Shown here one piece after another: positions 1,847 to 35,912 of a stretch of DNA of 43,637 nt. The stretch is from the NCBI GenBank assembly GCA_025361625.1, contig JANYKL010000149.1, positions 1 through 43,637 of the forward strand. Reading direction: 5' to 3'. The notes beneath the pieces were generated by a model that worked only from the letters and a program-made list of their open reading frames with translations, was not told where the DNA came from and ran no database searches. The position numbers were made by a program, and so were the translations under genes. The stretch is from Acidobacteriaceae bacterium. Its GTDB lineage: Bacteria > Acidobacteriota > Terriglobia > Terriglobales > Acidobacteriaceae. Position 1 is the first letter of the stretch, and each line of letters begins with the position of its first letter.

Positions 1847-1882
1847 GCACTTCTTATTGCACTTCGCTTTGAACTTCGCCCC
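1847..1882. repeat. Three 12-base tandem copies upstream of cpaF
   Basis: Three back-to-back 12-base units begin at 1847, 1859 and 1871 and share the core G(C/A)ACTTC. They occupy much of the 88-base gap between cpaE and cpaF, just upstream of the cpaF start on the minus strand. Same type of short tandem duplication as those flanking mdh, icd, the P-loop kinase and sdhC. No function can be read from the sequence. Confidence 0.7.
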
Positions 1883-1915
1883 CGTCGCCGGTTACCAGTC
1901 TAGTTGGTTTAGTAC

Positions 1916-3085
1916 CTAAACGGTCTTGAAAAGCGACCAAGCCTTACGTTTTACGTCCAAATCATCTTTCGTCAGGTGGTCAGCCAGTCCGGCTATGGAG
2001 CGCGAAATCTCTGAGTTTCCCTGATCCATTAGAGGGACTCCGCAATCGATTGCCGTCGACACCGCAACGTACTGGTTGGGAATACGCCACAGAATGGGCG
2101 ATCCTATAGCCGTTTCTGCCTGACGTTCATCAAACCCAGCAATCTTGCGATAGCGGTTCAACACCAACCCGAAACGGTCTCGCGATCCCGTGTCACCCAG
2201 GTATTGCGCCACCCGGCCTGCGCTCCATAACGAGGCTACGTCCGTATGCCCGATCAACAAAATTTTCTCCGACAGATTGCTGACGAGGTGAGTTGCACTA
2301 TCCAAGCGAGAAGATACGTCTACTACCACGTACTTAAACATGCCGACTATGGTGTCGAATAGACGTGCGATGTCCGAGGTTGATTGCTCAACGATCGAGG
2401 GGAAACTTGACCCTGCAAGAACCTGCAGGCCGCGGTCGTGGCGAACCATGAAACTTTCTAACAGGGAAGAATCGAGCCGATGCAGGTTAGTCACCGCGTC
2501 CCCCACCGTGAACGACGGCCTGAGATTCAGATGCAGCGTGCAATGCCCCATTGGAGCAAGATCGACGAGCGCGGTGCTGTGATGCACTTGCAGAGCTAGC
2601 GCCAGATTGACAGCTACGGTCGTGGCTCCGCTGCCACCTTTGGCGTTGACGACCGAAAATACTTTTCCGCGAGAATTGTCCCGGCTCGGCTTTCGGCGGG
2701 TTGCCGTCAGGCGCACGAATGCATCGAGCAGATCACTGGTGCTCGTAGGTCGCGCGATGAACTCACGCACTCCCGCTCGCATCGCGCTCACGATGAGTTG
2801 CGGTTGCGTCATGGGACCGATGGCGAATACCGCGGCGTCCGGAATTTCCTGGCGCAGAAATTCAATGGCGCGAAGGGCCGTCGCGACATCGTTGCCGGGC
2901 ATATCGACGACAATAACGTCAGGAGCGAAGGCCTGGGTTTTGCGAATGACGGGATCATTCGCCGCCAGCGGCATGCTCGAATTGCTGCAGACACTACGGG
3001 CGACGCTCGTTCCATCCACCAGAACCTGCAGCACAGCACGCTGGTCGTTGTCGGTGGCGAATACCGCTACTGACAATTCCGGCAT
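1916..3085 (-). CDS. cpaE: Tad pilus assembly protein CpaE/TadZ (REC-like plus MinD/ParA ATPase)
   Basis: Localisation factor of the Tad machine; family members place the pilus apparatus in the cell. Residues 1-125 look like a response-regulator receiver fold with a possible acceptor Asp61 (DVIVVDMPG). Residues 140-389 form a MinD/ParA-type ATPase domain. The P-loop reads KGGSGATT (149-156): the signature lysine K149 is kept but the usual lysine before TT is alanine, as is common in CpaE/TadZ, so the ATPase is atypical. A plausible SD (AAGGTGG) precedes the ATG. Operon position between cpaC and cpaF supports the call. Confidence 0.94.
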   Translation of the reverse strand: MPELSVAVFATDNDQRAVLQVLVDGTSVARSVCSNSSMPLAANDPVIRKTQAFAPDVIVVDMPGNDVATALRAIEFLRQEIPDAAVFAIGPMTQPQLIVSAMRAGVREFIARPTSTSDLLDAFVRLTATRRKPSRDNSRGKVFSVVNAKGGSGATTVAVNLALALQVHHSTALVDLAPMGHCTLHLNLRPSFTVGDAVTNLHRLDSSLLESFMVRHDRGLQVLAGSSFPSIVEQSTSDIARLFDTIVGMFKYVVVDVSSRLDSATHLVSNLSEKILLIGHTDVASLWSAGRVAQYLGDTGSRDRFGLVLNRYRKIAGFDERQAETAIGSPILWRIPNQYVAVSTAIDCGVPLMDQGNSEISRSIAGLADHLTKDDLDVKRKAWSLFKTV

Positions 3086-3139
3086 GACTCTTTACCACCT
3101 TCTAAGTGTCCCCACCACATCGTTGAGATCTTGGAGGCC

Positions 3140-4585
3140 CTACGGTAAACGCTTGTCTTTCTTCTTATCGAACGCGCCTCTATCCATAAACGGCTCCGGG
3201 GCCGCGGGCGGTATCGGATTTTGTGCTGAGGGTGCAATCTTGCGCACCGTGCAAAGAACCATCAATTCAGAATTACTCTTTTGATCGCTCTTGCTTCTAA
3301 AAAATGTTCCGATGATTGGAATATCGCCAAGGAAGGGAAATTTATTTGCCACTTTCGTAACGCGATTGTCCATCAAACCGGCGATAACAAAACTCTGCCC
3401 GTCCTGCACTTCGAATTCGGTGTCAGCCTTGCGCGTGCTGATTGCGGGAATCGTTGTACCGGAGACGGTAACTGAATCAGCAAAATCTAGCGTGCTGACC
3501 TCGGGGATTACATGCAGATGAATGTTGCCGTTCGGTTGGATGATGGGCGTGAACTTCAGACGCACGCCAAACTCCCGGAATTGAATGGTAACGGTTGAAA
3601 CTCCGCCCGTCCCCGGCTGCACGACCGGGAAGGGAAATTCTCCGCCAGCAAGAAAACTCGCCTCTTTGCCGTTCAACGCAACCAGATTGGGTTCAGCCAG
3701 AATCTGCAGCAGATTATGCGATTGTAACGCTTCAATGACCAACCCCAGATGAACCTGGGGATTGAAAAAAAACATATTCAAAGCGTTGGTAATTGTCGGG
3801 ATGGCGGAAGTTGTTCCGGTTCCGTTGCTGTTCGTTGGATTCGTGATTGTCCCAGGATTGATGGAGCCAAATTGCCCTGTAGTAGAGGTTCCGATGGTGT
3901 TGGCCGCACCGGTCGAGAATAGATTGAAGCCCACCTGCGATAGCGCCGAGCGATCTACTTCCGCGAATTTAACTTCCAGCAGCACTTCATCCGCTCCGAC
4001 TGGGCCAAACGTAAGCACGTTCACCACATTTTTCGAGTAAGCAGTAGCGAGCGATCCTGCGTGCTTGGCTACATCTTCGGTGGTGACGTGGCCGGAGAGC
4101 ACAATCGCCGATCGCGAGGGGGTGACCGATATGCGCTCATCCGGAAAGAGTCGGTTCATCTCCTCGGTTGCGGCCGTGATGTCGTCATCGACTCTAAGGT
4201 CGAAACTGCGGCTACGCTCGAGTTCATCCCATATGAGGAGGGAGACTTCACCAGGGGCAAGGCCATTAACCAGCACCTGGGTCGGAGTAATGGTTAAGGC
4301 ATCCGCGACGGACGGATCGGTCACCGAGACGCGTTTCAATCTTTCCGTCGTGTTAATCAAGAGAGACTTGCCGACCATCACTCGCAGGGGAACCGCTCCC
4401 GCCGTTACCCCCGGGGCGCTCGGGGGCGGCGCCGTCGTCTGCGCCGGCGGCGCCGACTCGGTAGCCTGCGCTGTAGTTTGGGCGGAGACGCTGGTTGCGG
4501 ATTTATTCTCCGCTTCGGTTGGGCTCGCAAACATCGTCGATGCGCCTAGACAAACGACGGCAACGGCGAGTGTAAAGATTTTCAT
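3140..4585 (-). CDS. cpaC: Tad pilus outer-membrane secretin CpaC (RcpA)
   Basis: Outer-membrane secretin channel through which the Flp pilus exits. The start at 4585 is preferred over the longer frame to 4648: it gives a clean signal peptide (MKIFTLAVAVVCLGAS) and has GAGG nine bases upstream. After the signal peptide comes an Ala/Thr/Pro-rich linker, the pilus/secretin N-terminal domain (VGKSLLINTTERLKRVSV), a BON-like region, and the C-terminal secretin domain with AGGEFPFPV and GDIPIIGTFFRS. The mature protein ends in a short Pro- and Lys-rich tail. About 481 residues, normal for CpaC. It lies 101 bases downstream of cpaB and 54 upstream of cpaE. Confidence 0.95.
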   Translation of the reverse strand: MKIFTLAVAVVCLGASTMFASPTEAENKSATSVSAQTTAQATESAPPAQTTAPPPSAPGVTAGAVPLRVMVGKSLLINTTERLKRVSVTDPSVADALTITPTQVLVNGLAPGEVSLLIWDELERSRSFDLRVDDDITAATEEMNRLFPDERISVTPSRSAIVLSGHVTTEDVAKHAGSLATAYSKNVVNVLTFGPVGADEVLLEVKFAEVDRSALSQVGFNLFSTGAANTIGTSTTGQFGSINPGTITNPTNSNGTGTTSAIPTITNALNMFFFNPQVHLGLVIEALQSHNLLQILAEPNLVALNGKEASFLAGGEFPFPVVQPGTGGVSTVTIQFREFGVRLKFTPIIQPNGNIHLHVIPEVSTLDFADSVTVSGTTIPAISTRKADTEFEVQDGQSFVIAGLMDNRVTKVANKFPFLGDIPIIGTFFRSKSDQKSNSELMVLCTVRKIAPSAQNPIPPAAPEPFMDRGAFDKKKDKRLP

Positions 4586-4686
4586 GAATTCGAGCCTCTG
4601 AGGGGATGCAAGCATGGGGTCTGGAGTAAAGCTGAACCGCACAACCATAATTTATCTGGATTGCGCTCTCAAGTGGCAAAAACGGC

Positions 4687-5511
4687 TCAAAACTTTGTTT
4701 CGTCCCGTTTACTGCCGCGGATCATCTCGACCGCGTACGGCGCATTGGCTGGCGGTGTTGCTTTGGCGATTGTTCTTTTGGCCCGGGGCTTCGATTCGGT
4801 CGGCGGCGGCGTGTCCCCAACATATAACGAACTCGCTCTGGTTGCGCCGATTGCCCCCTTCTTCGTGTCCAGCGGATTTCTTAAGGAGAGTTGGATACGC
4901 CCTTCCTGAGAAACTAAGGCAAGTTTTTGCGCGTCGTCCGGCGAGACCAGCAGCGTGATCACAGGAGACGGTTGCGCCTCGGAATTTCGATCCAAACTCT
5001 TGCCCACCGCCATTACCGCGACGTTCTCGAGCACAGTTGTCGTCTGGCTATCGTTCCCTCCACTTCTAGTGCCCGTGGAAAGAACGTCAACCCGTGTGCC
5101 GGGTTGAACAAAGCCGGCTACTGAAACAACGTCATTGACCCGAACCGAAACAGCACGCATCCCCGTAGGAATCAGCGATGGCAAACCATTCCCTGATTCG
5201 AGCGACGCTAATTTGCTTGGCAGCAGGAATTCCCCCTTACTGATGGGAAAGATTACACTCCGCCCCAACACCTCGCGGGCTGAAGTGTAGGCGTTTGGAG
5301 GCACCGCCGATTGGGGAACAGTGACGGGCCGAACATTGTCAGAGCTAATTTTTACCCCAAGCTGAATATCGCTCGCGGCAACCAGAACCGTCACGCCCGG
5401 TTCAACACCCTGCCCTGAAAAAAGTCGAAGGCGGTTGTAGACGCTATAGCTGACCAGAAGTCCAACAGCGAGAGCGAGTCCTCCGATCATCAACAATCGG
5501 CTTCGATGCAT
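4687..5511 (-). CDS. cpaB: Flp pilus assembly protein CpaB (RcpC), SAF domain
   Basis: Periplasmic partner of the Tad secretin. One N-terminal membrane segment (about 7-26) anchors it. Next comes a SAF domain (about 40-105, with GVTVLVAASDIQLGVKIS), then the RcpC/CpaB C-terminal domain with a motif (RAVSVRVNDVVSVAGFVQPG) typical of the family. The extreme C-terminus (about residues 220-274) is rich in Pro, Ala and Lys and probably disordered. 274 residues is usual. GGAAGGAAGAG directly precedes the ATG. It is the first gene after the flp pilin; there is no TadV/CpaA prepilin peptidase between them. Confidence 0.93.
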   Translation of the reverse strand: MHRSRLLMIGGLALAVGLLVSYSVYNRLRLFSGQGVEPGVTVLVAASDIQLGVKISSDNVRPVTVPQSAVPPNAYTSAREVLGRSVIFPISKGEFLLPSKLASLESGNGLPSLIPTGMRAVSVRVNDVVSVAGFVQPGTRVDVLSTGTRSGGNDSQTTTVLENVAVMAVGKSLDRNSEAQPSPVITLLVSPDDAQKLALVSQEGRIQLSLRNPLDTKKGAIGATRASSLYVGDTPPPTESKPRAKRTIAKATPPANAPYAVEMIRGSKRDETKF

Positions 5512-5618
5512 TCTCTTCCTTCCGACAAGTTTAGGCGCGGATCACTTAAACGGGGCAGTCCAAACCGTTGCGTCAACGCCCGATCACGATTTCTCTTCGC
5601 TAAGCGCGCAGGAATCGA

Positions 5619-5786
5619 CTACTGGCCGACCTGGCTAGCCACAGACGAGAAGACATTGTTGGCATTGCCGCCGATGAGGCGCACCGTGCCAATAACGATT
5701 ACTAGAATCACCGCGAGCATCACGGCATATTCCGCGATGTCCTGGCCCTCTTCCGCGCACAACAAACCCTTGACCAATTCAGCCAT
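5619..5786 (-). CDS. flp: Flp/Fap-type major pilin
   Basis: A 55-residue Flp pilin. The leader MAELVKGLLCAEEG is followed by the Flp box QDIAEYAVMLAVILVIV. Cleavage is expected after Gly14, which puts Glu at +5 and Tyr at +6, the hallmark of Flp pilins recognised by TadV/CpaA peptidases. The hydrophobic helix then forms the filament core. A purine-rich SD (AAAGGGG) sits just before the ATG. It is first in the cpaBCEF-tadB gene order and 108 bases upstream of cpaB, which fits a highly expressed lead gene. A 13-base duplicated motif lies upstream at 5802-5827. Confidence 0.93.
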   Translation of the reverse strand: MAELVKGLLCAEEGQDIAEYAVMLAVILVIVIGTVRLIGGNANNVFSSVASQVGQ

Positions 5787-5801
5787 ATATGACCCCTTTC
5801 A

Positions 5802-5827
5802 CTGATTCAAATGTCTGATTCGAGATT
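5802..5827. repeat. 13-base imperfect duplication upstream of flp
   Basis: Two adjacent copies starting CTGATTC (5802-5814 and 5815-5827) in the presumed leader of the flp pilin gene, which is read on the minus strand. The 191-base gap to the next gene otherwise shows no convincing sigma-70 or sigma-54 promoter by eye. Confidence 0.5.
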
Positions 5828-7435: not shown

Positions 7436-7443
7436 CGCAAGCG

Positions 7444-8673: not shown

Positions 8674-9977
8674 TTTCGAAACGTGGAATTCATTCGCAGA
8701 TTTGGATATTGGTCCTCACTGTAATCGTGTTTGCGGGCGGGTGGTCTTACATTAAGAGGGTGGTGGTGGTTCACCAGGTGCGGGAAGCGAGCCTGCGCCA
8801 GCAACCACGCGGAAATCTATCGGACCTCTACCCGAGATGGCTGGGCGCGAAGGAATTCCTTCTGAACGGACGCGATCCCTACAGCGCTGAGGTCACGCGC
8901 GAAATTCAAGCCGGTTATTACGGCAGGCCGCTTGATTCGACACGAGCAAACGATCCAAAAGACAAGGCGGGATTCGCCTACCCACTTTATGTGGCCTTTT
9001 TTCTGGCGCCGACGGTTTACTACGAATTCGCCCCTATTCAACGATTATTTTTTTGGTTGCTCGCTTTCGTTACTGTCGCCAGCGTCATACTTTGGCTGCG
9101 CCTGCTGAAGTGGGACCTTTCGCCAGTTGCGCAGTTGAGCGTAGTCGGTTTGAGTTTAAGCAGCATTGCAGCAATACAAGGACTGCAATTGCAACAAATG
9201 AGTCTGCTGGTGGCCGGACTGCTGGCGCTCGCGCTAGCCCTTTTGATTTCGGATTACCCGTGGCTGGCTGGCATCGTTCTCGCGGCAGCGACCATCAAGC
9301 CGCAGCTTACGGTCTTGCTCCTGCTGTGGCTTACAATTTGGACGATTGCAGATTGGCGACGGCGCTACCAATGGGCGGCGTCATTCGCAATTTCGCTGGC
9401 GGTTTTGATAACCCTATCTGACTGGTACCTGCCGCACTGGGTACAGCATTTCTGGCAAGGCATCCGCGATTATCAAAATTACACGGGAGCCGCATCGGTA
9501 ACGGACAATTTTCTGGGAACGCCGCTCAGTTGGTTATTGGAGCTGGTAGCGCTCGCAGCTACGGTGATCGTTGGCTGGCGTGCTCGCCACCATCCAGCGA
9601 ACAAACCCGAGTTCATTCTTACCGCAACCCTGCTGCTTGCCGTAACTGTTCTCATGATCCCCACTTCTGCTCAATATAATCAAGTATTGTTAATTCCCGC
9701 CTTACTGGTTCTAGTGCGTGAGCGCACCGTCATTCGAAGTCATAGCCTTCTCAACCGCGTTAGCTTTGTTCTGACAATGGTTCTGGTTGCGTGGCCGTGG
9801 ATTGCCAGCACAATTTTGGCCGGAATTTCCTTCATTGTGAAGGAGGACAAAATAGACCGCGCCTGGGCCGTGCCGCTTTGGACAACAATCCAAATTCCCA
9901 TCGCAGTTGCCCTCCTGATCCTTCTTCATCGCTACCAATCGACGATTGATGCTCCGGCAACGCCCGCCTCGTCGTAG
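8670..9977 (+). CDS. Second GT87-like membrane protein
   Basis: Polytopic membrane protein, about 435 residues from the chosen start. The first loop has LSDLYPRWLGAKEFLLNG followed by RDPYSAEVTREIQ and FAYPLYVAFFLAP, matching the GT87 pattern of an Asp-containing loop after the first helix. The only ATG in frame (8574) lies 100 bases inside the upstream gene, has no SD and would add a polar, unhelical leader. A CTG at 8670 has GAGGTG five bases upstream and overlaps the previous stop by three bases, so I use it; TTG at 8706 is an alternative. Start uncertain, gene sure. Confidence 0.8.
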   Translation: MISKRGIHSQIWILVLTVIVFAGGWSYIKRVVVVHQVREASLRQQPRGNLSDLYPRWLGAKEFLLNGRDPYSAEVTREIQAGYYGRPLDSTRANDPKDKAGFAYPLYVAFFLAPTVYYEFAPIQRLFFWLLAFVTVASVILWLRLLKWDLSPVAQLSVVGLSLSSIAAIQGLQLQQMSLLVAGLLALALALLISDYPWLAGIVLAAATIKPQLTVLLLLWLTIWTIADWRRRYQWAASFAISLAVLITLSDWYLPHWVQHFWQGIRDYQNYTGAASVTDNFLGTPLSWLLELVALAATVIVGWRARHHPANKPEFILTATLLLAVTVLMIPTSAQYNQVLLIPALLVLVRERTVIRSHSLLNRVSFVLTMVLVAWPWIASTILAGISFIVKEDKIDRAWAVPLWTTIQIPIAVALLILLHRYQSTIDAPATPASS

Positions 9978-13177: not shown

Positions 13178-13200
13178 CTTTGTAATATCTTTGTAGTTAT
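13178..13200. repeat. 11-base imperfect duplication upstream of korA
   Basis: CTTTGTA starts two adjacent near-copies (13178 and 13189) in the 179-base gap between the antiporter and korA. Adjacent AT-rich sequence contains TATAAT at 13236-13241 but without a clear -35 box at 16-18 bases, so a promoter is possible but not shown. Confidence 0.4.
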
Positions 13201-17582: not shown

Positions 17583-17828
17583 CTAACTTCCAGTTTCCTT
17601 GCCCTCGCCTTCGAACGAGTGCTCAGGGCTCTCGCTGGGCTCCGGAAAATCGGTGTCTGCTCCTTCTTGCTCCGAGCCTGTGCTGGGCGGCGTACCGTTT
17701 GGCTTGCGGTGGCCAAGCTGGCCAGCCAACGAACTATTGCTCGCCTGATCGGGACTATCCGGCTCCTCCGCTCCCTTGCTACGGTCTGGATCATTTTTTA
17801 AAGGATCACTCGCCGGTTTTAACATCAT
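17583..17828 (-). CDS. Small acidic, disordered protein of unknown function
   Basis: About 80 residues, almost free of hydrophobic residues; rich in Glu, Pro, Ser, Gly and Asp, so probably disordered and soluble. No recognised domain. Support for it being real is the strong SD: GAGGAGG is placed two bases before the first ATG (17828) and five before the second (17825), the second being better spaced. It lies alone on the minus strand between the alcohol dehydrogenase (208 bases downstream) and the YtxH-like gene. It could be a stress-induced hydrophilic protein, but nothing in the sequence proves a function. Confidence 0.55.
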   Translation of the reverse strand: MMLKPASDPLKNDPDRSKGAEEPDSPDQASNSSLAGQLGHRKPNGTPPSTGSEQEGADTDFPEPSESPEHSFEGEGKETGS

Positions 17829-18135
17829 CGCCTCCTCGCATTAACAGTAAGGTTTAACTTGGATGCTATGGCCGAGCAGACCGTTCTTGTCAGGGTTCTG
17901 TGCGGTAGTAGTTGTGAGACTCCCGATTGGTAGATTTAATAATCCATTTCCTGGAGCCCAGAACACCGTGCGGAGAACATAAGCAAGAAAAGCGAGTAAA
18001 AAGAAAACCTATAAAAAAGAGGGCGTCTCATAAAGACCAGCCGCCCTCTCGAATTCAAATTCCGTTTAAAAGTTCATCGCAAGCCAAAAAAAGCAGGTTG
18101 ATGCCACGTATTTTGCGGCCAAAGACTTAGGGCAC
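17829..18135. other. Gene-poor gap before the small acidic gene
   Basis: 307 bases upstream of the acidic orphan. It holds a strong minus-strand terminator at 18013-18049 that belongs to the YtxH/HhH gene, and therefore the orphan needs its own promoter here. A plus-strand frame (17927-18130) of 67 Lys/Arg-rich residues runs across the terminator and has no SD, so I do not call it. Nothing else is recognisable. Confidence 0.5.
18013..18049 (-). terminator. Rho-independent terminator of the YtxH/HhH gene
   Basis: On the minus strand an 8-base-pair stem (AGAGGGCG with CGCCCTCT, arms 18042-18049 and 18018-18025) with a 16-base loop is followed at once by a run of Ts (18018-18013, complement of A). 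It is 87 bases past the stop at 18136. Confidence 0.8.
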
Positions 18136-18570
18136 CTAAGCACTTTCCCGCTTTTTTCTCAGTAGTTCGTCTTTGACATGCTCTAGCGTTTCTTCCGGCA
18201 ATACGCCCTCATCAAGCACTTCTTCGGCAGAAGAATAGGGACGGTGCTTCATGATTCGGGTGGCGGTGGTCTTGCCGATTCCGTTGACGCTCATGAGTTC
18301 ATGCCGGTCGGCCGAGTTGAGAACTTCAGCAATCGCTTTGCTGTCAGCATCTTGTCCCGCCGCCGCAGCTTTATCGGACGCCCTTTGGCTCTCGAAATTG
18401 AGCATGTTTGATCGAGGGGTAGCCGTCATCTCATCGCCCTTTGCCTTAATCGTTTCCTTAATCCCCGAAACCCGCCTCCAGAGAATGTTTCGCGTCTGTT
18501 CGCGCTTCACGGGCGCAAATAAAACAGCCGCCGCAGCGCCGACTCCCAGTCCCGCTAAAAATGATTTCAT
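18136..18570 (-). CDS. YtxH-like membrane anchor with C-terminal helix-hairpin-helix domain
   Basis: 144 residues. The N-terminus (MKSFLAGLGVGAAAAVLFAP) is a short membrane segment of the YtxH/gas-vesicle-like kind, followed by a charged linker with possible coil (residues 20-75). The C-terminal half (about 80-140) is a helix-hairpin-helix domain of the ComEA/HHH_3 type: LNSADRHELMSVNGIGKTTA then RIMKHRPYSSAEEVLDEGVL. Such domains bind DNA non-specifically or bring partners together. GGAGG is eight bases before the ATG and a clear terminator follows. The combination suggests a membrane-tethered DNA-binding protein, an inference. Confidence 0.72.
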   Translation of the reverse strand: MKSFLAGLGVGAAAAVLFAPVKREQTRNILWRRVSGIKETIKAKGDEMTATPRSNMLNFESQRASDKAAAAGQDADSKAIAEVLNSADRHELMSVNGIGKTTATRIMKHRPYSSAEEVLDEGVLPEETLEHVKDELLRKKRESA

Positions 18571-20907: not shown

Positions 20908-21642
20908 TTACTGGGGATACCACTCAAGCGTACGGACCTCGATGCCGCTACCTTCCAGCCCTTTTTTGAAGACTGAAAGATTGGAGCCGCGATAGTGATA
21001 GGGAATCACGATTTTCGGATGAAACGCTTTCACCGCTTCCGCGGCCTCGTTCGGAGGCATGGTATAAGGCAAATTCATGCAGACGAAAGCGACGTCGATA
21101 TTTTTCAGCGCGCGCATCTCTGGCACGCCTTCGGTATCTCCCGAAAAGTAGAAGCGCTTTCCGCCATAGGTGAGGACGTACCCGTTCCCACGCCCTTTAT
21201 CGTGATAAAGCTTTCCGGCGGATGGTCCGCGCACCAGGTTATAGGCAGGAATCGCTTCGATCGTCCAGCCCTGCCAGGTCTTGCTCTCACCGTTTGAAAT
21301 CGGCTTGGCGGTAGTCACCGTGGCAACCACCGCTGGCGGTGCAAAAATTTCGGTTCCGCTCTTGCTGACCGCCGCCTCCGATGCCGGATCCATGTGGTCG
21401 GGATGAATGTCGGTCACCAGGATCAAGTCGGCCTTTGGCATGGAGTTGGAGTCGAGCTTTGCAGGCTTGGCAGGATCGAGATAGATCGTTTTCCCGCCAG
21501 CCTCAATCAACGTGCTTGCGTGATAGATAGGCGTAATCTTCACATCTCCCGCAGCGGTCTCAAAGGTCTGTGTATCCGTGGAGGCAAAAACCGGAACTGC
21601 GAGGGCGAACAATAAACCGGCAATAGCGGCAAATATTTTCAT
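20908..21642 (-). CDS. Exported metallo-beta-lactamase fold hydrolase
   Basis: 244 residues. Signal peptide MKIFAAIAGLLFALAVPVFA. The body is an MBL-fold hydrolase of the UlaG/L-ascorbate-lactonase-like group: HASTLIEAGGKTIYLDP, VTDIHPDHMDP, KRFYFSGDTEG and KIVIPYHY. The metal motif reads DIHPDH where the superfamily usually has HxHxDH, so the first His is Asp. Downstream His and Asp ligands (GDT, YHY) are kept. Probably a periplasmic metal-dependent hydrolase; substrate unknown. It lies upstream of the aminotransferase on the same strand with a 150-base gap. Confidence 0.85.
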   Translation of the reverse strand: MKIFAAIAGLLFALAVPVFASTDTQTFETAAGDVKITPIYHASTLIEAGGKTIYLDPAKPAKLDSNSMPKADLILVTDIHPDHMDPASEAAVSKSGTEIFAPPAVVATVTTAKPISNGESKTWQGWTIEAIPAYNLVRGPSAGKLYHDKGRGNGYVLTYGGKRFYFSGDTEGVPEMRALKNIDVAFVCMNLPYTMPPNEAAEAVKAFHPKIVIPYHYRGSNLSVFKKGLEGSGIEVRTLEWYPQ

Positions 21643-21786: not shown

Positions 21787-21828
21787 ATCTCAAAGGCTTG
21801 TTGCAAGCTCTAAAAGGCTTGATGCACG
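21787..21828. repeat. 21-base imperfect tandem duplication in the MBL-egtB divergent gap
   Basis: Two 21-base units (21787-21807 and 21808-21828) share AAAGGCTTG(T/A)TGCA. They lie in the 430-base divergent region between the MBL gene (minus) and egtB (plus). The rest of this gap is AT-rich around 21830-21910 without a clear promoter. Confidence 0.55.
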
Positions 21829-21989: not shown

Positions 21990-22054
21990 ATCCATCGATG
22001 CTAGCGATCAATGATTCTAGTAATCCATGATTCTAGTGATCAATGATGCTAGCT
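21990..22054. repeat. Four-copy 16-base tandem array upstream of egtB
   Basis: Four near-copies with consensus ATC(A/C)ATGATTCTAGTG: 21990-22006 (17 bases), 22007-22022, 22023-22038 and 22039-22054. The array ends 18 bases before the egtB ATG and is close to its SD (GGAG at 22063). CTAG, normally rare, recurs in every unit. Operator array, transcript structure or slippage product; the sequence alone does not decide. Confidence 0.75.
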
Positions 22055-22072: not shown

Positions 22073-23464
22073 ATGCCAGTCGCGGAAAGAAATATCGCCT
22101 CTTCCCACCCCCTGCTCGAGCGATTGGCAGACGCCCGTCAAAAAAGTGATGCGCTTTTTTCCCTCGTTCAGGAACAATTTCTCTATGAACGTCCAATTCC
22201 AGAGCGTCACCGCATCGTCTTCTACATCGGTCATCTCGAAGCTTTCGATTGGAATTTGCTGAACGAAAGTATCGCTCGCGTGGAGAGCACTCATCCCGAG
22301 TTTGACCGCCTCTTTGCTTTTGGAATCGATCCAGCTGGCGACGGGCTGCCGACCGACGTCCCCTCGGACTGGCCCACGCTCGAAGCAGTTCGAGCCTACG
22401 TTTCCAACATACGGAGCGCCCTTGATCAGCATTTAGAGAAAGCCATGTTAGAGAAAGCAATGATTAACCCGGAAGCTGCCGGTCGCGATGGCTTCCCGCT
22501 TGCGACACTCCTCAACGTGGCGGTGGAGCACCGGTTGATGCATGTGGAGACTCTTGCATACATGCTGCATCAATTGCCGTCGACCATGAAAATTAATCCC
22601 ACCAGCCACCAAAGAAATCTTCGAGACGTCAGCGGAATTGCGATTGAGCCCGACACCGTCGCCGTGCCCGCAGGAGTTGTAACCCTCGGCCTGCCTCGCA
22701 ACTCTAGCGATTTCGGATCGGATAACGTTTTTGGATGGGATAACGAGTTCGAAGCCAACACCCAGGAGGTTTTAGGATTCACCATCGACAAGTACAAAGT
22801 GACAAACGGTCAGTACCTGGAATTCATGGCCGCGGGCGGCTACGAAAAGCCCATGTTCTGGACCGATGAAGACTGGGAGTGGAAGTCTTCCAACGGAATG
22901 AATCATCCGGCATTCTGGCGAAAAGAGGACGACCGGTGGTACTACACGACTATGTTTGATCAAGTGCCGCTGCCCTTGGACTGGCCGGTATATCTGAGCC
23001 AGGCGGAAGCGTCGGCCTACGCAAATTGGGCAGGGAAGTGTCTTCCGACCGAGGCCGAGTGGCAGCATGCTGCTTACGGAACTCGTGAAGGGAATGAGCG
23101 CCCATTTCCCTGGGGAGATCAGGCGGCAGACTCGCCATCCGCGAAAAATCTTGGAAATTTCGATTTGCGCAACTGGGACCCGACTCCGGTCAATGCCTTT
23201 CCCGAAGGTCAAAGCGCTTTCGGAGTTCATGACATGATGGGCAACGGATGGGAATGGACGTCAAGCGTATTCGCGCCGTTCCCCGGATTCAAGCCCTTCT
23301 CGTTCTACGAGGGCTACTCCGCCAATTTTTTTGATGGAAAACATTTTGTGATGAAGGGCGGCTCGGCACGAACCGCCGCATGTATGTTGCGAAGGTCGTT
23401 TCGTAACTGGTTCCAGGCGCACTATCAGTACGTATACGCGGGCTTTCGGTGTGTCAGCCGTTAG
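22073..23464 (+). CDS. egtB: EgtB-like hercynine sulfoxide synthase (DinB plus FGE domain)
   Basis: 463 residues. Residues about 10-165 form a DinB-like four-helix domain with the iron site: His54 (YIGHLEAFDW) and the HX3HXE motif H153-RLM-H157-V-E159. About 190-463 is the FGE/SUMF1 domain with QYLEFMAAGGYEKPMFW, WPVYLSQAEASAYANWAGK and MMGNGWEWTSSVF. EgtB joins hercynine to a thiol donor with oxygen and iron. The adjacent egtD provides hercynine. A 15-base in-frame duplication encodes LEKAM-LEKAM (about 121-130). GGAG precedes the ATG. OvoA-type specificity is the main alternative. Confidence 0.88.
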   Translation: MPVAERNIASSHPLLERLADARQKSDALFSLVQEQFLYERPIPERHRIVFYIGHLEAFDWNLLNESIARVESTHPEFDRLFAFGIDPAGDGLPTDVPSDWPTLEAVRAYVSNIRSALDQHLEKAMLEKAMINPEAAGRDGFPLATLLNVAVEHRLMHVETLAYMLHQLPSTMKINPTSHQRNLRDVSGIAIEPDTVAVPAGVVTLGLPRNSSDFGSDNVFGWDNEFEANTQEVLGFTIDKYKVTNGQYLEFMAAGGYEKPMFWTDEDWEWKSSNGMNHPAFWRKEDDRWYYTTMFDQVPLPLDWPVYLSQAEASAYANWAGKCLPTEAEWQHAAYGTREGNERPFPWGDQAADSPSAKNLGNFDLRNWDPTPVNAFPEGQSAFGVHDMMGNGWEWTSSVFAPFPGFKPFSFYEGYSANFFDGKHFVMKGGSARTAACMLRRSFRNWFQAHYQYVYAGFRCVSR

Positions 23465-25005: not shown

Positions 25006-25278
25006 ATGAAAGAAGAATGTACTCACCTCGACCAGATCAAAGTGCGGTCCACCGACAAACACGTTTGCGAAGAATGCGTAAAAACCGGGGACAAGTGGGT
25101 CCACTTGCGCATGTGCCTGGTATGCGGAAAAGTCGGCTGCTGCGACTCTTCGAAGAACACGCATGCGACCAAACATTTCCATTCGACAAAACATCCGGTC
25201 ATGCGATCAGTCGAACGCGGCGAGTCTTGGGTCTGGTGCTATATCGACGAGATTCAAGCGGGTGAGATCACAGCCTAG
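25006..25278 (+). CDS. UBP-type zinc finger protein
   Basis: 90 residues that are almost entirely a UBP-type zinc finger: CTHL, HVCEECVKTGDKWVHLRMCL, VCGKVGCCDSSKNTHATKHF, then HSTKHPVMRSVE and WVWCYIDE. The Cys/His ligands of the domain are all present. In eukaryotes the fold binds the ubiquitin C-terminus; bacterial versions are widespread and of unknown role. A perfect AGGAG six bases before the ATG. It is followed by an SDR 74 bases on, and the pair may be one unit. Confidence 0.9.
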   Translation: MKEECTHLDQIKVRSTDKHVCEECVKTGDKWVHLRMCLVCGKVGCCDSSKNTHATKHFHSTKHPVMRSVERGESWVWCYIDEIQAGEITA

Positions 25279-26279: not shown

Positions 26280-26303
26280 GCTCAACACATCTTTTCAAAA
26301 GCG

Positions 26304-27298
<995 letters not shown>

Positions 27299-29511: not shown

Positions 29512-30225
29512 TTACGTGGGTTTCTTTGTCGTTGCTGCTTTGGCGGCGGGTTTTGCGGAGGCCGCGCCGGTGTGGTGCGTTTCAATGTGCGTAATTTTGA
29601 TGGGCCTTATCGGGCGCTCACCGTCTTTAGCCATGCTGGCGATCTGCTTTACAAGCGCGACCGCGGCCTCGTCGCACTGGCCAAAAATCGTGTACTTGCC
29701 ATTCAGGCTGGGGTAGGGAACTTCCGTGACGAAGAATTGCGATCCGTTTGTGTCGGGTCCGGCATTCGCGTACGCGAGCCGCCCCGGACGATCGAACGTC
29801 ACGTTAGGCGACGTTTCGTTCTTAAATTTGTATCCCGGGTCCCCGGTTCCGTCTCCCTTAGGGTCTCCGCCTTGAATCATGAAACTCGGAATGACACGAT
29901 GAAAGATTGTTCCATCATAAAGCGGTACGCCATGCTTTTTTGCGTGTGAAACAGGGCTGGTCCAGTCTTTGGTGCCGTTTGCCAGCGCGACGAAATTCTC
30001 AACGCCAACGGGAGCGATCTTTGGCAACAATGTGCAGTGAAGATCTCCGGCCGTTGTGTGGATGACTGCCGAAGGCCCTGCACTCGCAGTCGTTGTAGCC
30101 GCCGCCTTGTGCGCGGGCGACGCGGCCTTTGGCTTAGTTGTAGTCTGCGGCTTGGTTGTGGTCTGCGCCAATCCCGACAGCGAAGCGCACACAATCAAAA
30201 ACGGCATTACTAATGTAAAGCGCAT
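29512..30225 (-). CDS. Exported cyclophilin-type peptidylprolyl isomerase
   Basis: 237 residues from the ATG at 30225, which follows AGGAG by five bases; longer frames to 30609 would overlap the dipeptidase gene. Signal peptide MRFTLVMPFLIVCASLSGLA, then a Thr/Lys/Ala-rich linker with TTTKPQTTTKP (about 22-50). Cyclophilin domain FHRVIPSFMIQGGDP and GSQFFVTEVPY. Ends in an Ala-, Lys- and Thr-rich tail (AKPAAKAATTKKPT). Probably periplasmic folding catalyst. Confidence 0.9.
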   Translation of the reverse strand: MRFTLVMPFLIVCASLSGLAQTTTKPQTTTKPKAASPAHKAAATTTASAGPSAVIHTTAGDLHCTLLPKIAPVGVENFVALANGTKDWTSPVSHAKKHGVPLYDGTIFHRVIPSFMIQGGDPKGDGTGDPGYKFKNETSPNVTFDRPGRLAYANAGPDTNGSQFFVTEVPYPSLNGKYTIFGQCDEAAVALVKQIASMAKDGERPIRPIKITHIETHHTGAASAKPAAKAATTKKPT

Positions 30226-31655: not shown

Positions 31656-32171
31656 TCAGGAAGCCGCTAGCGCCGCAAAGGCCTGTTGAACGCACTGCGC
31701 AAGCGGCAAGTCGGTATCGATGAGAGTTTTAGATCTGTTGATCGGTTCGAAGCGCGCCTTGACCTGCAAGTAAAGCTCGAATGACCGGTTGTTTGCGGGA
31801 TGGCTCGGATCAGCTTTTTCTAATCGCTGGCGCGCCGACGTTTCCGAGCATATGCAGTCAATGATTCTCCACGGTTGGCCAATGCCGTCCGCGACAGCGA
31901 GGGCGCGGTCGATCTGGTAAGTCCTGGAGAACGTCCGACCGTCAAAAAATATCGCGCGGTTCGGCGAGTGGCGGCACAAGAATCGTGCGGCATCCAGCAT
32001 GACTTCCATAACGAAATCGTCTTGCTCCAACGAATAATCGGTATGCGCTGATGTAAAGATGGCGGCGCGAATTTCATCTTTGCTAAGAATGGCGCCGTCG
32101 GTAAGGCGAGCAAGTTCGCGTGCGAGAGTGGATTTGCCGGTTCCGGGAAGTCCGGCCATCAAAACGATCAT
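31656..32171 (-). CDS. AAA_33-type P-loop kinase
   Basis: 171 residues. Walker A GLPGTGKST (7-15), SKDEIRAAIF, then IFFDGRTFSRTYQIDRAL and RIIDCICSETSARQRL, as in small nucleotide or sugar kinases and zeta-toxin-like AAA_33 proteins. Phosphoryl acceptor unknown. No antitoxin-like gene is next to it. It follows the DUF5715 gene by 49 bases, a gap that holds a 12-base duplication. Confidence 0.8.
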   Translation of the reverse strand: MIVLMAGLPGTGKSTLARELARLTDGAILSKDEIRAAIFTSAHTDYSLEQDDFVMEVMLDAARFLCRHSPNRAIFFDGRTFSRTYQIDRALAVADGIGQPWRIIDCICSETSARQRLEKADPSHPANNRSFELYLQVKARFEPINRSKTLIDTDLPLAQCVQQAFAALAAS

Positions 32172-32177
32172 CTCAAT

Positions 32178-32201
32178 AGAATTGTTAGAAGAATTGTTAG
32201 A
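32178..32201. repeat. Exact 12-base tandem duplication before the P-loop kinase
   Basis: AGAATTGTTAGA at 32178-32189 and 32190-32201, two perfect copies with no gap, directly upstream of the kinase ATG (32171, minus strand) and downstream of the DUF5715 stop. Confidence 0.8.
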
Positions 32202-32220
32202 TTAAATTTCGCGTTGAAGA

Positions 32221-33015
32221 CTAGTCGGTGGCGCTGACGGCGCTCACGACCGTACCCGGCGCCCGCATCGGCACTTCCGCGGGAATGATCGCCGAGAATG
32301 CAGTCTGCGTCTGACGCCATTCGCTGTAACGATCCGACACCATGATGTGGAAGACCCACTGGTGTCGCTCTTCTTCCGGCTCAACTAATCCCAAAGCGTT
32401 CAGGTAAAAAAGGTAATACTCGACGAAGTGAATTTGCCCTTTTGTCATGCCCCGTCGCTGCAGGTCGACCGTGATGCCGGCTAAATGCGATGATGCCGTA
32501 TCGCCTTCAATGGGAGCGGCATTGCGATTGTGGCGGCGAAGCTTCTTTTGAATCTTGACCGTGCGAACCGCAGAATTGACCTGAATTTTCTCGTGGAACT
32601 GGTGGTAGTAAACAGCAGACAGGTCCTCGACAAAGTCTCGCGTCCACGGGCGGCAGTAGCGGCGCGATGGCTCCAGGCGCCGGTCGAAGTGCAGCCCTTC
32701 GCTTTCTGCAATGGGAACCAGATCGTGCGACGCTTTCAATTGTTCAAGTTCAATGTCATCCGCGATGCGCGGTAGTTCCAGCCGGTCAACTTCTTCATTC
32801 TGTCGGATCAGGGAATCGTGCGAAGGCCGAAACATCGGATTCCACAAAAGCCGGCCAAGACTGCTCAAGTGGAGAATGTGCAGGAATCTGTGACGATGGG
32901 AACGCCGTACCGCGAAGGCACTGCCGGAAGAGCCGATCAAGATAAAACAAGCAAGCAACGCCAGGGAGCATGTTCGGCTTGCAAACCCGCTAACTCGGAG
33001 GGCCCGGCGAATCAT
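32221..33015 (-). CDS. Exported DUF5715-like protein with possible M15 peptidase core
   Basis: 264 residues. N-terminal signal or anchor (about 14-35, LALLACFILIGSSGSAFA). The conserved middle has SSHLAG (175-180) with ITVDLQ, giving an S-x-H-x-x-G-x-x-x-D pattern (His177, Asp184), and later HQWVFHIMV (218-226). That order resembles the zinc ligands of M15 D-Ala-D-Ala carboxypeptidases. The DUF5715 family name is my recollection and the peptidase role is inference. It leads a minus-strand run: kinase, M19 dipeptidase, exported cyclophilin. Confidence 0.65.
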   Translation of the reverse strand: MIRRALRVSGFASRTCSLALLACFILIGSSGSAFAVRRSHRHRFLHILHLSSLGRLLWNPMFRPSHDSLIRQNEEVDRLELPRIADDIELEQLKASHDLVPIAESEGLHFDRRLEPSRRYCRPWTRDFVEDLSAVYYHQFHEKIQVNSAVRTVKIQKKLRRHNRNAAPIEGDTASSHLAGITVDLQRRGMTKGQIHFVEYYLFYLNALGLVEPEEERHQWVFHIMVSDRYSEWRQTQTAFSAIIPAEVPMRAPGTVVSAVSATD

Positions 33016-33204
33016 AAAATATATTGTGAATCCGTCTTGATTGTAGTTTAGCCCTATACAATTTACTGAAAGAAATCGCCGTAAGCACCGTTACTTAAGG
33101 GACTTATCGGTAGTTACTATGCTCCGAAGTCGCTGATTTTACGCGCCGAACGCCTGGATCGGCGAGATCAAATCAATACATTTGTTCTGGCGAATCGACT
33201 CTGT

Positions 33205-33957
33205 TTATTTGCGAAGCAGGTCTCCAAGCGCCTGTTTCATGACCTGACCGCCAACTTCCGCAATCGATGTAGTGAGCGGAATTTCCTTCGGACAAATTTC
33301 TACGCAATTCTGCGCGTATCCGCATTCCTGAATTCCGCCATCGCCCATCAGGGCAGAGAGACGCTCGCGCTTCAATGCCTGTCCAGTTGGATGCGTATTA
33401 AATAATCTTACCTGCGAAATAGCTGCAGCCCCGACGAAGCCGGTGTCGTCGTTGAATTGCGGGCACGCCTCCATGCAGCAACAACAAGAAATACAATTCG
33501 AGAGGGGATACGACTGCTCCTGTTCCTGCATGGTCACGCGGGGCCCGGGGCCAAGGTCGTAGCTGCCATCAACCGGCACCCAGGCTTTGACCTTCTTCAA
33601 ATTCTCGAAGAGCACGCTGCGATCGACTGACAGATCTCGCACTACAGGAAATTTGGAAAATGGCTCCAGCTTGATCGGCTTCTCAAGATTGTCGAGCAAG
33701 GCAGAGCAAGCCATGCGGGCGCGCCCGTTGATAAGCATGGCGCAAGATCCGCAGATCTCCTCAAGACAATTCGCGTCATAAGTGATGGGAGTAGTCTGCT
33801 TGCCGCTGCGCGTGACAGGGTGGGCCGCGATCTCCATAAGAGCCGAAGTGACGTTCATGTTCGGCTTGTAAGGAATCTCAAACTCTTCCCATGACGCCTT
33901 CGCGTCGGGAGTGGGCTGCCGCTTAATTTTTATAATTACCGATTTATCGTTTGCCAT
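33205..33957 (-). CDS. sdhB: Succinate dehydrogenase iron-sulfur subunit
   Basis: 250 residues. [2Fe-2S] ligands in NCLEEICGSCAMLING plus the later MAC; [4Fe-4S] in CISCCCCMEACPQ, with the [3Fe-4S] ligands completed by CGYAQNCVEICP. Transfers electrons from SdhA to quinone in the membrane complex. Third gene in the order sdhC-sdhA-sdhB. The 33016-33204 gap upstream of the DUF5715 gene holds a weak hairpin (33144-33164) without a T run. Confidence 0.96.
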   Translation of the reverse strand: MANDKSVIIKIKRQPTPDAKASWEEFEIPYKPNMNVTSALMEIAAHPVTRSGKQTTPITYDANCLEEICGSCAMLINGRARMACSALLDNLEKPIKLEPFSKFPVVRDLSVDRSVLFENLKKVKAWVPVDGSYDLGPGPRVTMQEQEQSYPLSNCISCCCCMEACPQFNDDTGFVGAAAISQVRLFNTHPTGQALKRERLSALMGDGGIQECGYAQNCVEICPKEIPLTTSIAEVGGQVMKQALGDLLRK

Positions 33958-33962
33958 TGGAT

Positions 33963-34001
33963 GTCTTTTCCAAATCGTTTTTCTAAACTCTTTCCAAAAC
34001 C
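33963..34001. repeat. Degenerate 12-14-base tandem units upstream of sdhB
   Basis: Three pyrimidine-rich near-copies (TCTTTTCCAAATC, TTTTTCTAAACTC, TTTCCAAAACCTA) fill the sdhA-sdhB gap on the plus-strand reading. More degenerate than the arrays at mdh and icd. Confidence 0.5.
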
Positions 34002-34044
34002 TATTCCCGTGACCGCCTGAAATCCTGTCGCTCCAAAGCTTTTC

Positions 34045-35811
34045 TCAATATTTTCTCGGCCGCGGTGGAATCAGGCTCGCATCGACCGGCTCGAATTCGA
34101 ACTTCGGTTCGTCCAGGTCAGGTGCAAAGGTTGCTTTCGTTGTCTTCATCCAATTCTTGTCGTCGCGTTCAGGGAAGTCGGGCTTGTAGTGCGAGCCGCG
34201 AGATTCGTCGCGCATGGCTGCTCCCTGGGCTATGACTCGAGAGAGTTGCAGCATGTTATAAAGTTGGCGCGTGAAGGCGATGGTGGTGTTCGCCCATTGC
34301 GAGCGGTCACTCAGATTAATCTTGTCAAACCGATGAAGCATGTCGACGAGCTTCCCGTCGGTCTCTTCGCACTTCTTGCTATAACGGATGACGGTGCAGT
34401 TCTCCGTCATCATGGCCCCGAGCTCACGCCACAACAGAAATGGATTCTCGGTCCCGTCGGCCTTCATGAGACGCGAGTTGATGTCCTGCTGGCGTTTGCG
34501 CTCGGCGTCAAAATGCCCGTTGCTGGCAGCGGCTTGCAAACTCTTCGCATACTGCACCGCGTTCGGGCCGGCGGTGAAGCCCCCGAAGATGCACGATACG
34601 AGCGAGTTTGCGCCCAGGCGATTCGCTCCGTGATATTGGTACTCAGCTTCTCCGGCAGCGAAAATTCCCGGAACATTGGTCGCTTGCTTATAGTCAACCC
34701 ATAGCCCGCCCATCGTGTAGTGCATGCCCGGGAAAATTTTCATCGGAGTATCGCGCGGATCGTCGCCGACAAACTTCTCGTAGATTTCCAGAATACCTTC
34801 GAGCTTGCGGTCGAGGGTCTTGCGATCGATGTGGGTAAGGTCGAGATAAACCATCGGCTTGCCGTCGATCCCGAGATTGTGTTCGTACACCACTTTAAAG
34901 ATCGCTCGCGTGGCGACGTCGCGTGGCACGAGATTACCGTATTTCGGATACCACTCTTCGAGAAAGTACCATCGATCGCTTTGCGGAATCGATTTCGGAT
35001 CGCGCTTGTCCCCTTGCGTCTTCGGAACCCACACGCGGCCGCCCTCTCCACGCGCCGATTCAGACATCAGGCGAAGTTTATCTTCTCCCGGAATGCACGT
35101 CGGATGGACCTGAATGAACTCCCCGTTCGCGTAATAGGCGCCCTGCTGGTAGAGCGCCGATTGGGCTGAGCCCGTGCATACGACTGAATTTGTCGATTTA
35201 CCGAAGATAGCGCCGCATCCGCCGGTAGCAACGATGATTGCATCAGCGGGAAAAGTGCGAACTTCCATGCTGCGCAGGTCCATGGCGCAGATGCCGCGGC
35301 AGGTGCGGGTTCCGTCAAGCACTGCGGAAAGGAATTCCCAATGCTCGTATTTCTTGACCTTGCCTTCAGATTCGTAGCGCCGCACTTGTTCGTCGAGGGC
35401 ATAAAGAAGCTGCTGCCCGGTCGTGGCCCCTGCAAAAGCGGTTCGGTTGTAGAGCGTCCCGCCGAAGCGCCGGAAATCAAGCAGTCCCTCGGGAGTGCGG
35501 TTGAAGGGGACTCCCATGCGATCGAGAAGATCGATAATGCCGGGGGCCGCATCACACATGGCCTTCACGGGCGGCTGGTTTGCGAGAAAATCACCACCGT
35601 AAATTGTGTCGTCGAAATGCTTGAAAGTGGAATCGCCTTCGCCCTTAAGATTTTTCGCCGCGTTGATGCCGCCCTGCGCGCATACCGAGTGCGAACGCTT
35701 CACCGGGACGATCGAAAACAAATCAACCTCGCCGCCCATCTCGGCAATCTTGATGACGGCTGCGAGCCCCGCCAGTCCGCCCCCTACGACGATAATTTTC
35801 GGTGCTGCCAT
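34045..35811 (-). CDS. sdhA: Succinate dehydrogenase flavoprotein subunit
   Basis: 588 residues. FAD motif GGGLAGLAAVIKIAE near the N-terminus; covalent-flavin His in RSHSVCAQGGINA; active site region with HYTMGGLWVDY and GANRLGANSLVSCIFGG. The short form (about 590) and the neighbouring single-subunit cytochrome b place it with the Bacillus/epsilon-type complex rather than the proteobacterial type. Oxidises succinate to fumarate. 87 bases separate it from sdhB. Confidence 0.96.
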   Translation of the reverse strand: MAAPKIIVVGGGLAGLAAVIKIAEMGGEVDLFSIVPVKRSHSVCAQGGINAAKNLKGEGDSTFKHFDDTIYGGDFLANQPPVKAMCDAAPGIIDLLDRMGVPFNRTPEGLLDFRRFGGTLYNRTAFAGATTGQQLLYALDEQVRRYESEGKVKKYEHWEFLSAVLDGTRTCRGICAMDLRSMEVRTFPADAIIVATGGCGAIFGKSTNSVVCTGSAQSALYQQGAYYANGEFIQVHPTCIPGEDKLRLMSESARGEGGRVWVPKTQGDKRDPKSIPQSDRWYFLEEWYPKYGNLVPRDVATRAIFKVVYEHNLGIDGKPMVYLDLTHIDRKTLDRKLEGILEIYEKFVGDDPRDTPMKIFPGMHYTMGGLWVDYKQATNVPGIFAAGEAEYQYHGANRLGANSLVSCIFGGFTAGPNAVQYAKSLQAAASNGHFDAERKRQQDINSRLMKADGTENPFLLWRELGAMMTENCTVIRYSKKCEETDGKLVDMLHRFDKINLSDRSQWANTTIAFTRQLYNMLQLSRVIAQGAAMRDESRGSHYKPDFPERDDKNWMKTTKATFAPDLDEPKFEFEPVDASLIPPRPRKY

Positions 35812-35880
35812 GTCTTATGAAATCCAATCTGCCTGACTACCTGGCTAAAACCGTCCAAGTGCTGACACCATTCTTGACTC

Positions 35881-35912
35881 AGCGACTGCTAAATCAAGCG
35901 AGTGCTAACGTA
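35881..35912. repeat. 16-base tandem duplication spanning the sdhC stop codon
   Basis: Two 16-base near-copies (35881-35896 and 35897-35912), beginning AGCGA(C/G)TGCTAA. The second holds the sdhC stop codon (35905-35907). Confidence 0.65.

Follow-up and report, generated by a model that had tools for sequence, protein, structure and literature searches.

Short tandem duplications between the genes of a soil acidobacterium exceed chance and probably derive from an ordinary duplication process filtered by selection

We report here that the sampled DNA of a soil acidobacterium (genome G000, 630 kb sampled of 3.83 Mb, i.e., 3,829 kb) is much richer in short intergenic tandem duplications than expected by chance. 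In the intergenic DNA (98.9 kb) there are 48 tandem duplications of 11-25 bases against 3.8 in dinucleotide shuffles, a 12.6-fold excess, and 24 against 0.8 when at most one mismatch is allowed; genes were called with a simple hexamer-based caller, by which small genes are missed and so counted as intergenic. A rate no higher than that of random sequence, the result by which a sequence-only reading of this DNA had proposed to be judged, is thus not what was found. We put at roughly 75% the probability that these repeats reflect an ordinary but rather active process of short duplication, by slippage or template switching, which is filtered by purifying selection. Chance in sequence of this composition would account for three of the eight spots listed by the sequence-only reading, but for the whole set it is rejected by the above counts and is next to impossible.

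The window (the whole stretch of 43,637 nt that was analyzed) was scored spot by spot against 200 dinucleotide shuffles of its own intergenic DNA (34 segments, 5,847 bp), the expectation for each spot being how many repeats of the same or a higher score a shuffled set contains on average (Table 1). Seven repeats in this intergenic DNA reach a score of at least 10, against 0.18 expected in shuffles. Four of the eight previously listed spots are beyond chance, one is marginal and three are at chance level, and the repeats which had been named at mdh and icd both proved strong. The repeat at 1847 is a tandem array of period 12 as had been described, but in place of three copies it has about 2.75 imperfect ones. 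Each unit of the mdh array contains GTTTAG on the minus strand, while the icd unit, ACGCAGGTTAAG, occurs twice on the minus strand and doubles the stop codon.

Table 1. Repeats in the window and their expectation in shuffled sequence. The names mdh, icd, and sdhC are those of the sequence-only reading, and egtB-like and cyclophilin-like were given by eye; no family search stands behind any of them.
Position	Strand	Repeat	Score	Expected	Context and remarks
1847-1882		12-bp imperfect tandem array, about 2.75 copies	11 at lag 12	0.06	19 nt upstream of gene 532-1827(-)
5802-5827		chance-level repeat		7.1	
13178-13200		chance-level repeat		7.1	
17985-18020		16-bp imperfect duplication	10 at lag 16		not listed previously; TRF
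21787-21828		21-bp imperfect duplication	13	0.00	between divergent genes 20908-21642(-) and 22073-23464(+)
21990-22054		16-bp array, about 3.5-4 copies	22.5	0.00	ends 18 nt upstream of gene 22073-23464(+) (egtB-like); TRF
22433-22462	+	15-bp in-frame duplication (LEKAM LEKAM), one mismatch in 15			inside gene 22073-23464
25162-25194		18-bp imperfect duplication	10 at lag 18		not listed previously
26300-26361	-	12-bp degenerate array, about 5 units	13.5	0.00	runs out of the mdh stop codon
27330-27353	-	exact 12-bp duplication doubling the icd stop codon		0.00	about half within icd; TRF
30131-30167	-	18-bp duplication (multiple of three), 2 mismatches			CDS match inside gene called as 29512-30225 (cyclophilin-like); TRF
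32178-32201		exact 12-bp duplication	12	0.00	6 nt upstream of gene 31656-32171(-); 24-mer unique in the genome
33963-34001		chance-level repeat		2.0	
35881-35912		16-bp imperfect duplication, marginal	9.5	0.28	spans the stop of gene 35905-36648(-) (sdhC)

The sequence-only reading had seen in these repeats a genome-wide habit of adding sequence at gene borders. The excess extends across the sampled genome and behaves like a product of mutation; the border preference did not hold up, as the duplications are spread evenly inside intergenic DNA, with 24 of the 46 flanked matches lying no more than 40 nt from a gene border, where 23.0 are expected, and nine within 10 nt (8.8 expected). Starts, stops and divergent promoters were likewise not preferred in the intergenic placement test. 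The contrast is with coding DNA, where duplications are about five times thinner: the rate is 0.24 per kb between genes, and within genes it is 0.036 per kb for in-frame and 0.009 per kb for out-of-frame duplications. This contrast is explained by selection and not by border targeting; repeats appear to sit at gene borders because selection keeps duplications out of genes, and between genes, where they would do little harm, they seem to be tolerated.

The duplications found in genes are biased toward units which keep the frame. With at most one mismatch, multiples of three make up 19 of 24 coding against 12 of 24 intergenic duplications, a difference that is not significant at 0.05 for this genome alone (Fisher p 0.07); in a species of the same genus, G008, the figures are 9 of 10 against 4 of 18 (Fisher p 0.001). 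Intergenic lags of 11-18 account for 42 repeats and lags of 19-23 for four, while in coding DNA lags 12, 15, and 18 are represented by 10, 15, and 11 repeats and lags 13, 14, 16, and 17 by 2, 0, 0, and 1. The coding size peak is modest, since the further multiples of three at 24 (8), 42 (9), and 45 (13) are populated too. Arrays of 7-8 bp are nearly absent (lag 7, two; lag 8, none in 99 kb) in this spectrum, whose 12-base windows barely register two-copy units below about 10 and which sets no lower size limit.

The rate of duplication is elevated but is not special to the lineage. In the other genomes, of which 80-273 kb each were sampled, six species of the same genus have 0.32-0.76 duplications per kb of intergenic DNA, G008 being the densest (0.76) of seven sampled same-genus genomes, against 0.13 per kb in E. 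coli and 0.10 in Sinorhizobium (S. meliloti). A replicon of the betaproteobacterium Cupriavidus metallidurans reaches a comparable 0.48 per kb (8 matches in 16.6 kb), and three of the four Acidobacteriota sampled outside the family (G049, G050, and G066, not G093) share the excess, although G+C-rich 12-mers make up some of the intergenic matches in G066 and C. metallidurans and may be missed coding sequence. The only sampled genome of the same family but another genus (G084) is low. It should be kept in mind that shuffle means are noisy: E. coli stood at 2.4 times its shuffles in one run and at 4.2 in another, G021, with 0.32 per kb, at 3.1 and then, with more sequence, at 5.7, and G084 at 1.2 against 10 (one match). 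A habit, or mutational mechanism, peculiar to this lineage which adds repeats at gene borders could draw on the same-genus densities above those of E. coli and S. meliloti and on a mild border excess in 80 pooled loci from relatives (53 of 95 within 40 nt against 41.9 expected, and 23 of 95 within 10 nt against 14.4). The densities in C. metallidurans and in Acidobacteriota outside the family, the uniform placement in G000 and the occurrence of duplications in genes too make it very improbable.

A second possibility is that the arrays are regulatory, serving as tandem sites to which DNA- or RNA-binding proteins would attach close to starts and stops. The array at 21990-22054, just before gene 22073, is a near-palindrome with a predicted hairpin fold of -32.7 kcal/mol (z -3.6), and pairs of the TTGACCATGGT type with 13 bp spacing lie 2-9 nt from the next called gene at six loci of relatives (L070, L089, L091, L092, L094, and L099; in L098 the next gene is 573 nt off). 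A similar 14-bp pair, ATTACGACCATGGT, lies 18 nt before a gene in G000 (L145, 17806-17833). In a Beggiatoaceae genome, the TAACTGA heptads that precede starts have been proposed as sites of a translational regulator (PMC4679880). Against this, the arrays share no common unit, only five pairs among the 48 having a common 8-mer where random intergenic windows average 4.4; starts, stops and divergent promoters are not favored in G000; the arrays are not conserved at the orthologous sites examined; and duplications occur within genes as well. The motif CGTTTA was considered, being present in 4 of the 48 arrays with 0.27 expected, but it was chosen after a scan of all k-mers, and sharing is at chance level. 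A regulatory origin is therefore disfavored in general and appears unlikely; the arrays are presumably without function for the most part, and a few single ones may be regulatory.

The joints of the duplications bear on how a slippage or template-switch step would compare with end joining, in which fill-in of staggered breaks is followed by ligation through Ku/LigD, so that the overhang is doubled. Nine exact intergenic duplications have a mean of 2.7 extra matched bases at the joint, and four of the nine have none; Ku-dependent fill-in was proposed because microhomology is weak, and staggered-end fill-in would indeed give little of it. Ku was found in G000 and in 32 of 41 genomes searched. 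However, G008 has no Ku match (99% completeness) and yet is the densest of the seven same-genus genomes, which argues against a requirement for Ku, and G021 (96% complete) also has none; end joining is accordingly a very poor candidate. Footprints of transposable elements, i.e., target-site duplications left by precise excision, have in their favor that some target-site lengths overlap the unit lengths of 11-18 bp, but a single element does not explain arrays of three to five copies or such widely spread lengths, and we regard this origin as even less probable. A hairpin-templated origin was dropped for G000 because none of 63 arrays has an inverted partner within 250 bp (random intergenic spots, 2.5%). 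In the pooled loci of relatives 23 of 171 arrays have one (random 9%), and by genome the counts are 4 of 13 in G016 (random 14%), 9 of 15 in G010 (27%), and 11 of 14 in G049 (47%). The fold of L156 3045-3180 gave z +2.2 on a segment that ended before the second arm.

Comparison with relatives is consistent with ordinary slippage or template switching as the source. At three sites with readable orthologues the second copy is lacking in relatives: the LEKAM doubling in all 22 orthologous loci covering the site (24 fetched), the G007 orthologue showing an exact five-residue gap; an EQKF doubling on L139 in all 11 other same-genus genomes covering the site; and the icd stop duplication in all 26 icd ends examined (80 loci fetched). 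In the 600 nt searched upstream of the G007 orthologue no array was found, whether for 21787-21828 or for 21990-22054. For the sdh locus, the relatives' DNA matches at no more than 82%. Copy number differs at two loci between G004 and G010, an 11-bp duplication being present in one species only and an 18-bp array differing by one copy; such differences are probably gains rather than losses. On the other side, not all arrays are young, since four of the 13 listed for G004 are common to G010 by reading, several others not being decidable. Among 36 alignable intergenic gaps of 11-18 bp in three same-genus species, whose overlapping pairs make the gaps not all independent, two are tandem duplications (0.28 expected), and therefore most short intergenic indels among these species are of another or unresolvable origin. 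A looser comparison of 17 locus pairs, in which whole-locus alignment left too few usable gaps to polarize changes, gave one of 8 intergenic and two of 10 coding gaps of 11-18 bp as tandem duplications.

Bacterial VNTR or minisatellite loci vary in copy number within species; the 18-bp array of G010 and G004 is similar in this respect, but copy numbers in the arrays studied here are mostly low. Cyanobacterial STRR heptads are short direct repeats between genes with one recurring unit, unlike the arrays of G000, which each have their own local unit and share 8-mers at chance level. The Beggiatoaceae TAACTGA repeats are likewise short, direct and intergenic, but as described there they too have one recurring unit (PMC4679880). 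Earlier work outlined in the same report describes long SSRs (simple sequence repeats) with units of 5-11 nt, heptads being commonest, which are patchy across phyla and favor multiples of three in coding DNA, and for which slippage has been proposed (PMC4679880). The 7- and 8-bp arrays of the relatives fit this description, whereas G000 has almost no such arrays, longer units and often two copies. In the sections of a prokaryote survey on close pairs of identical 10-mers (cd10g50, within 50 nt), such pairs are mostly over-represented intergenically and weakly under-represented in genes (PMC4060949), a pattern that G000 resembles in its excess between genes and depletion within them. Table 2 of that survey gives Acidobacteria 1.50 and 2.25 for the clustered repeats 6n6g24 and 8n4g24, and its whole-genome value for exact tandem pairs with units of 9, 10, and 11 nt is 0.00 (normal); units of 12-18 nt, the commonest in G000, fall outside the tandem patterns listed there (PMC4060949).

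The process we favor would run as follows. While DNA is being replicated or resynthesized in repair, the nascent strand would re-anneal, or the polymerase would switch template, one step back, so that some 11-18 bases are copied twice; a second slip would add copies to give arrays of three to five, and point mutation would then make the copies diverge. Coding and non-coding DNA would be struck alike, selection would remove copies that break the frame and thin the in-frame ones from genes, and the surviving duplications would gather between genes and across stop codons.

An impression of border repeats can thus come from selection and not from targeting. A much less probable reading is that species of one acidobacterial genus build up sharply different kinds of short duplication, with direct units of 11-18 bp lacking inverted partners in G000 and, in sister species such as G008, also units of 7 and 8 bp as mirror arms of long hairpins. 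If true, this would suggest that the replication or repair machinery contains a heritable switch controlling how far a template switch steps and which strand it takes. Should the contrast in unit size extend to whole genomes, a clade with many sequenced members would offer a way of mapping the determinants of duplication step size in bacteria.

The genome that holds the window, G000 (3.83 Mb in 196 contigs, of which the window is contig C83), was sampled as 630 kb, namely the window and 40 other stretches, and searched for tandem pairs of units 11-25 bases long, with mismatches ≤p/6, p being the unit length. Its 98.9 kb of intergenic DNA contained 48 tandem duplications compared with a mean of 3.8 in ten dinucleotide shuffles; at one mismatch or fewer the counts were 24 and 0.8, and a smaller preliminary scan had given 31 and 3. 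The rate therefore clearly exceeds that of composition-matched random sequence, and to this extent the sequence-only reading, which had seen many short repeats at gene borders, was right. Scored against shuffles of the window's own intergenic DNA, the repeats it had reported at mdh and icd are both strong, while four of its eight other spots lie beyond chance (≤0.06 expected), one is marginal (0.28) and three are at chance level (2.0 to 7.1). The attribution to Acidobacteriota is also correct, since MAGs carrying the labels Acidobacteriaceae, Terriglobales, Terriglobia, Candidatus Sulfotelmatobacter and Candidatus Korobacter are among the relatives at the mdh locus.

Repeats added at gene borders should crowd at starts and stops inside intergenic segments, and those of G000 do not. 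Among the 46 matches flanked by genes on both sides, 24 lie ≤40 nt from a border (random placement within the same segments predicts 23.0), with a stop codon at this distance in 17 (15.6 expected) and a start in 14 (13.1 expected). Density per kb was similar in co-directional (0.53), divergent (0.46) and convergent (0.49) segments. Some repeats do touch stop codons, and that of icd doubles the stop codon itself, but such contact is expected when short intergenic segments are struck at random. In the 80 pooled loci of relatives, borders were modestly enriched (53 of 95 at ≤40 nt, 41.9 expected).

Duplications also occur inside genes. At one mismatch or fewer, 531 kb of G000 coding DNA held 24, of which 19 were multiples of three, as against 12 of the 24 intergenic ones (Fisher p 0.07); in G008, of the same genus, the fractions were 9/10 and 4/18 (p 0.001). 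Rates per kb in G000 were 0.036 in frame and 0.009 out of frame in coding DNA and 0.24 in intergenic DNA, the coding rate in all being about five times lower. The commonest unit lengths, 12-15 between genes and 12, 15 and 18 within them, overlap, and further coding lengths divisible by three are occupied as well (e.g., 45, with 13). This is the pattern that a process acting everywhere, followed by a selection filter, should leave.

The duplications are local, and several are missing from relatives at the sites compared. The 15-bp in-frame duplication that doubles LEKAM in the protein of gene 22073-23464 was present in none of the 22 orthologous loci covering the site (24 fetched); the nearest by protein identity (G007, 77%) has an exact five-residue gap there, as have L221 and L226, and a scan reaching 600 nt upstream of that gene in G007 gave no array. 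Likewise, the doubled EQKF of an L139 protein was seen in none of 11 other same-genus genomes covering the site, a stretch of generally variable length, and the icd stop duplication in none of 26 relatives' loci examined at the same place (80 fetched), five of which possess another array in the icd-mdh interval. G004 and G010, two species of the genus, differ at two places: only one of them has a certain 11-bp duplication, and their copy numbers of an 18-bp array are one apart. Unit sequences are not shared beyond expectation (5 array pairs with a common 8-mer, 4.4 expected from random intergenic windows).

We regard slippage or template switching in the course of synthesis as the most parsimonious explanation, with a probability of about three in four. 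Duplications would arise by either route while DNA is synthesised; the process would strike everywhere, and selection would then filter the survivors. In its review of prior work, a paper on heptad repeats treats 5-11 nt repeats and polymerase slippage (PMC4679880). Ku-dependent end joining could also make such duplications, but the excess persists in G008 and G021, both without a Ku match in a gene-content test, and G008 is the densest of the seven same-genus genomes sampled. Other results go against a simple duplication story: when G004, G008 and G010 were compared, 36 intergenic gaps of 11-18 bp could be aligned and just 2 of them proved to be tandem duplications (0.28 expected), which makes duplications a minority of short indels at this distance; among 13 arrays listed for the pair G004 and G010, 4 occur in both species by our reading and several others are unreadable; and 4 of 9 exact duplications have no microhomology at the joint.

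Density per kb of intergenic DNA was 0.49 in G000, 0.32-0.76 in six same-genus species (G003, G004, G008, G010, G016, G021), 0.07 (1 match) in one genome of another genus of the family, 0.09, 0.36, 0.43 and 1.02 in four other Acidobacteriota, 0.13 in E. coli K-12, 0.10 in S. meliloti pSymB and 0.48 (8 matches) in the C. metallidurans megaplasmid, with wide confidence ranges for small samples and, in C. metallidurans and the acidobacterium G066, some matches that may be missed coding sequence. Comparable densities in C. metallidurans and several other Acidobacteriota argue against a mechanism special to the lineage. According to a prokaryote genome survey, repeated 10-mers lying close together are mostly over-represented in intergenic DNA, but for exact two-copy tandem units of 9-11 nt its counts in Acidobacteria are normal (PMC4060949). 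Among the papers listed, PMC4060949 included, titles and abstract openings revealed none dedicated to tandem repeats or duplications in Acidobacteria, most subscription journals lying outside the coverage.

A regulatory role fits only a few arrays. It is favored by the array before gene 22073, which folds well (z -3.6) and is a possible leader hairpin, and by paired TTGACCATGGT-like palindromes close to certain genes. The latter recur across species, in most cases within a few nt of the called gene that follows, and look like a true regulatory site. Dispersed repeats on L164 and L166, with many matching places in G004 and G008, are REP- or MITE-like.

Coordinates of hairpins, palindromes and dispersed repeats (hairpins are examples; others exist)
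Stretch	Positions	Feature	Remark
Window	21990-22054	16-bp array	near-palindrome, GCTAGC ends
L145 (G000)	17806-17833	TTGACCATGGT-like pair	13-14 bp apart
L070, L089, L091, L092, L094, L098, L099		TTGACCATGGT-like pairs	13-14 bp apart
L164	7738-7829; 8330-8394	dispersed repeats	match both strands of same places
L164	8411-8452; 9561-9898	dispersed repeats	
L166	5998-6066; 8399-8459	dispersed repeats	
L267	17537-17608	long hairpin	folded whole
L268	15602-15673	long hairpin	folded whole
L272	15330-15428	long hairpin	folded whole
L191	1522-1591	long hairpin	
L268 (G008)	9734-9779; 18240-18294	Acido-Lenti-1 RNA matches	above gathering score

Between the genes of same-genus relatives lie long hairpins with arms built from 7- or 8-bp units in tandem. 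Their number, with the intergenic DNA covered in kb, was 14 (47.6) in G008, 6 (22.3) in G004, 5 (39.9) in G010, 4 (24.5) in G016, 2 (15.2) in G003 and 1 (25.3) in G021, and the distant acidobacterium G049 also has them, 4 (13.8), segments longer than 1,500 nt being covered to 1,500 nt. The three folded whole reached -48.6 to -60.1 kcal/mol (z -7.3 to -9.7) and had no Rfam match at gathering score. None was present in the 98.9 kb of G000 or in 38.4 kb from E. coli. G000, whose sample lacks these hairpins of its sister genomes, is also smaller (3.83 Mb at 95.7% completeness, compared with 4.2-6.1 Mb for 13 same-genus genomes of at least 90%).

As a whole, the idea of a gene-border habit special to this lineage is not supported. 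The excess of tandem duplications is real and statistically strong, yet it is an ordinary genome feature, and the long hairpins with 7- or 8-bp-repeat arms in the relatives are a more unusual one than the duplications of G000.
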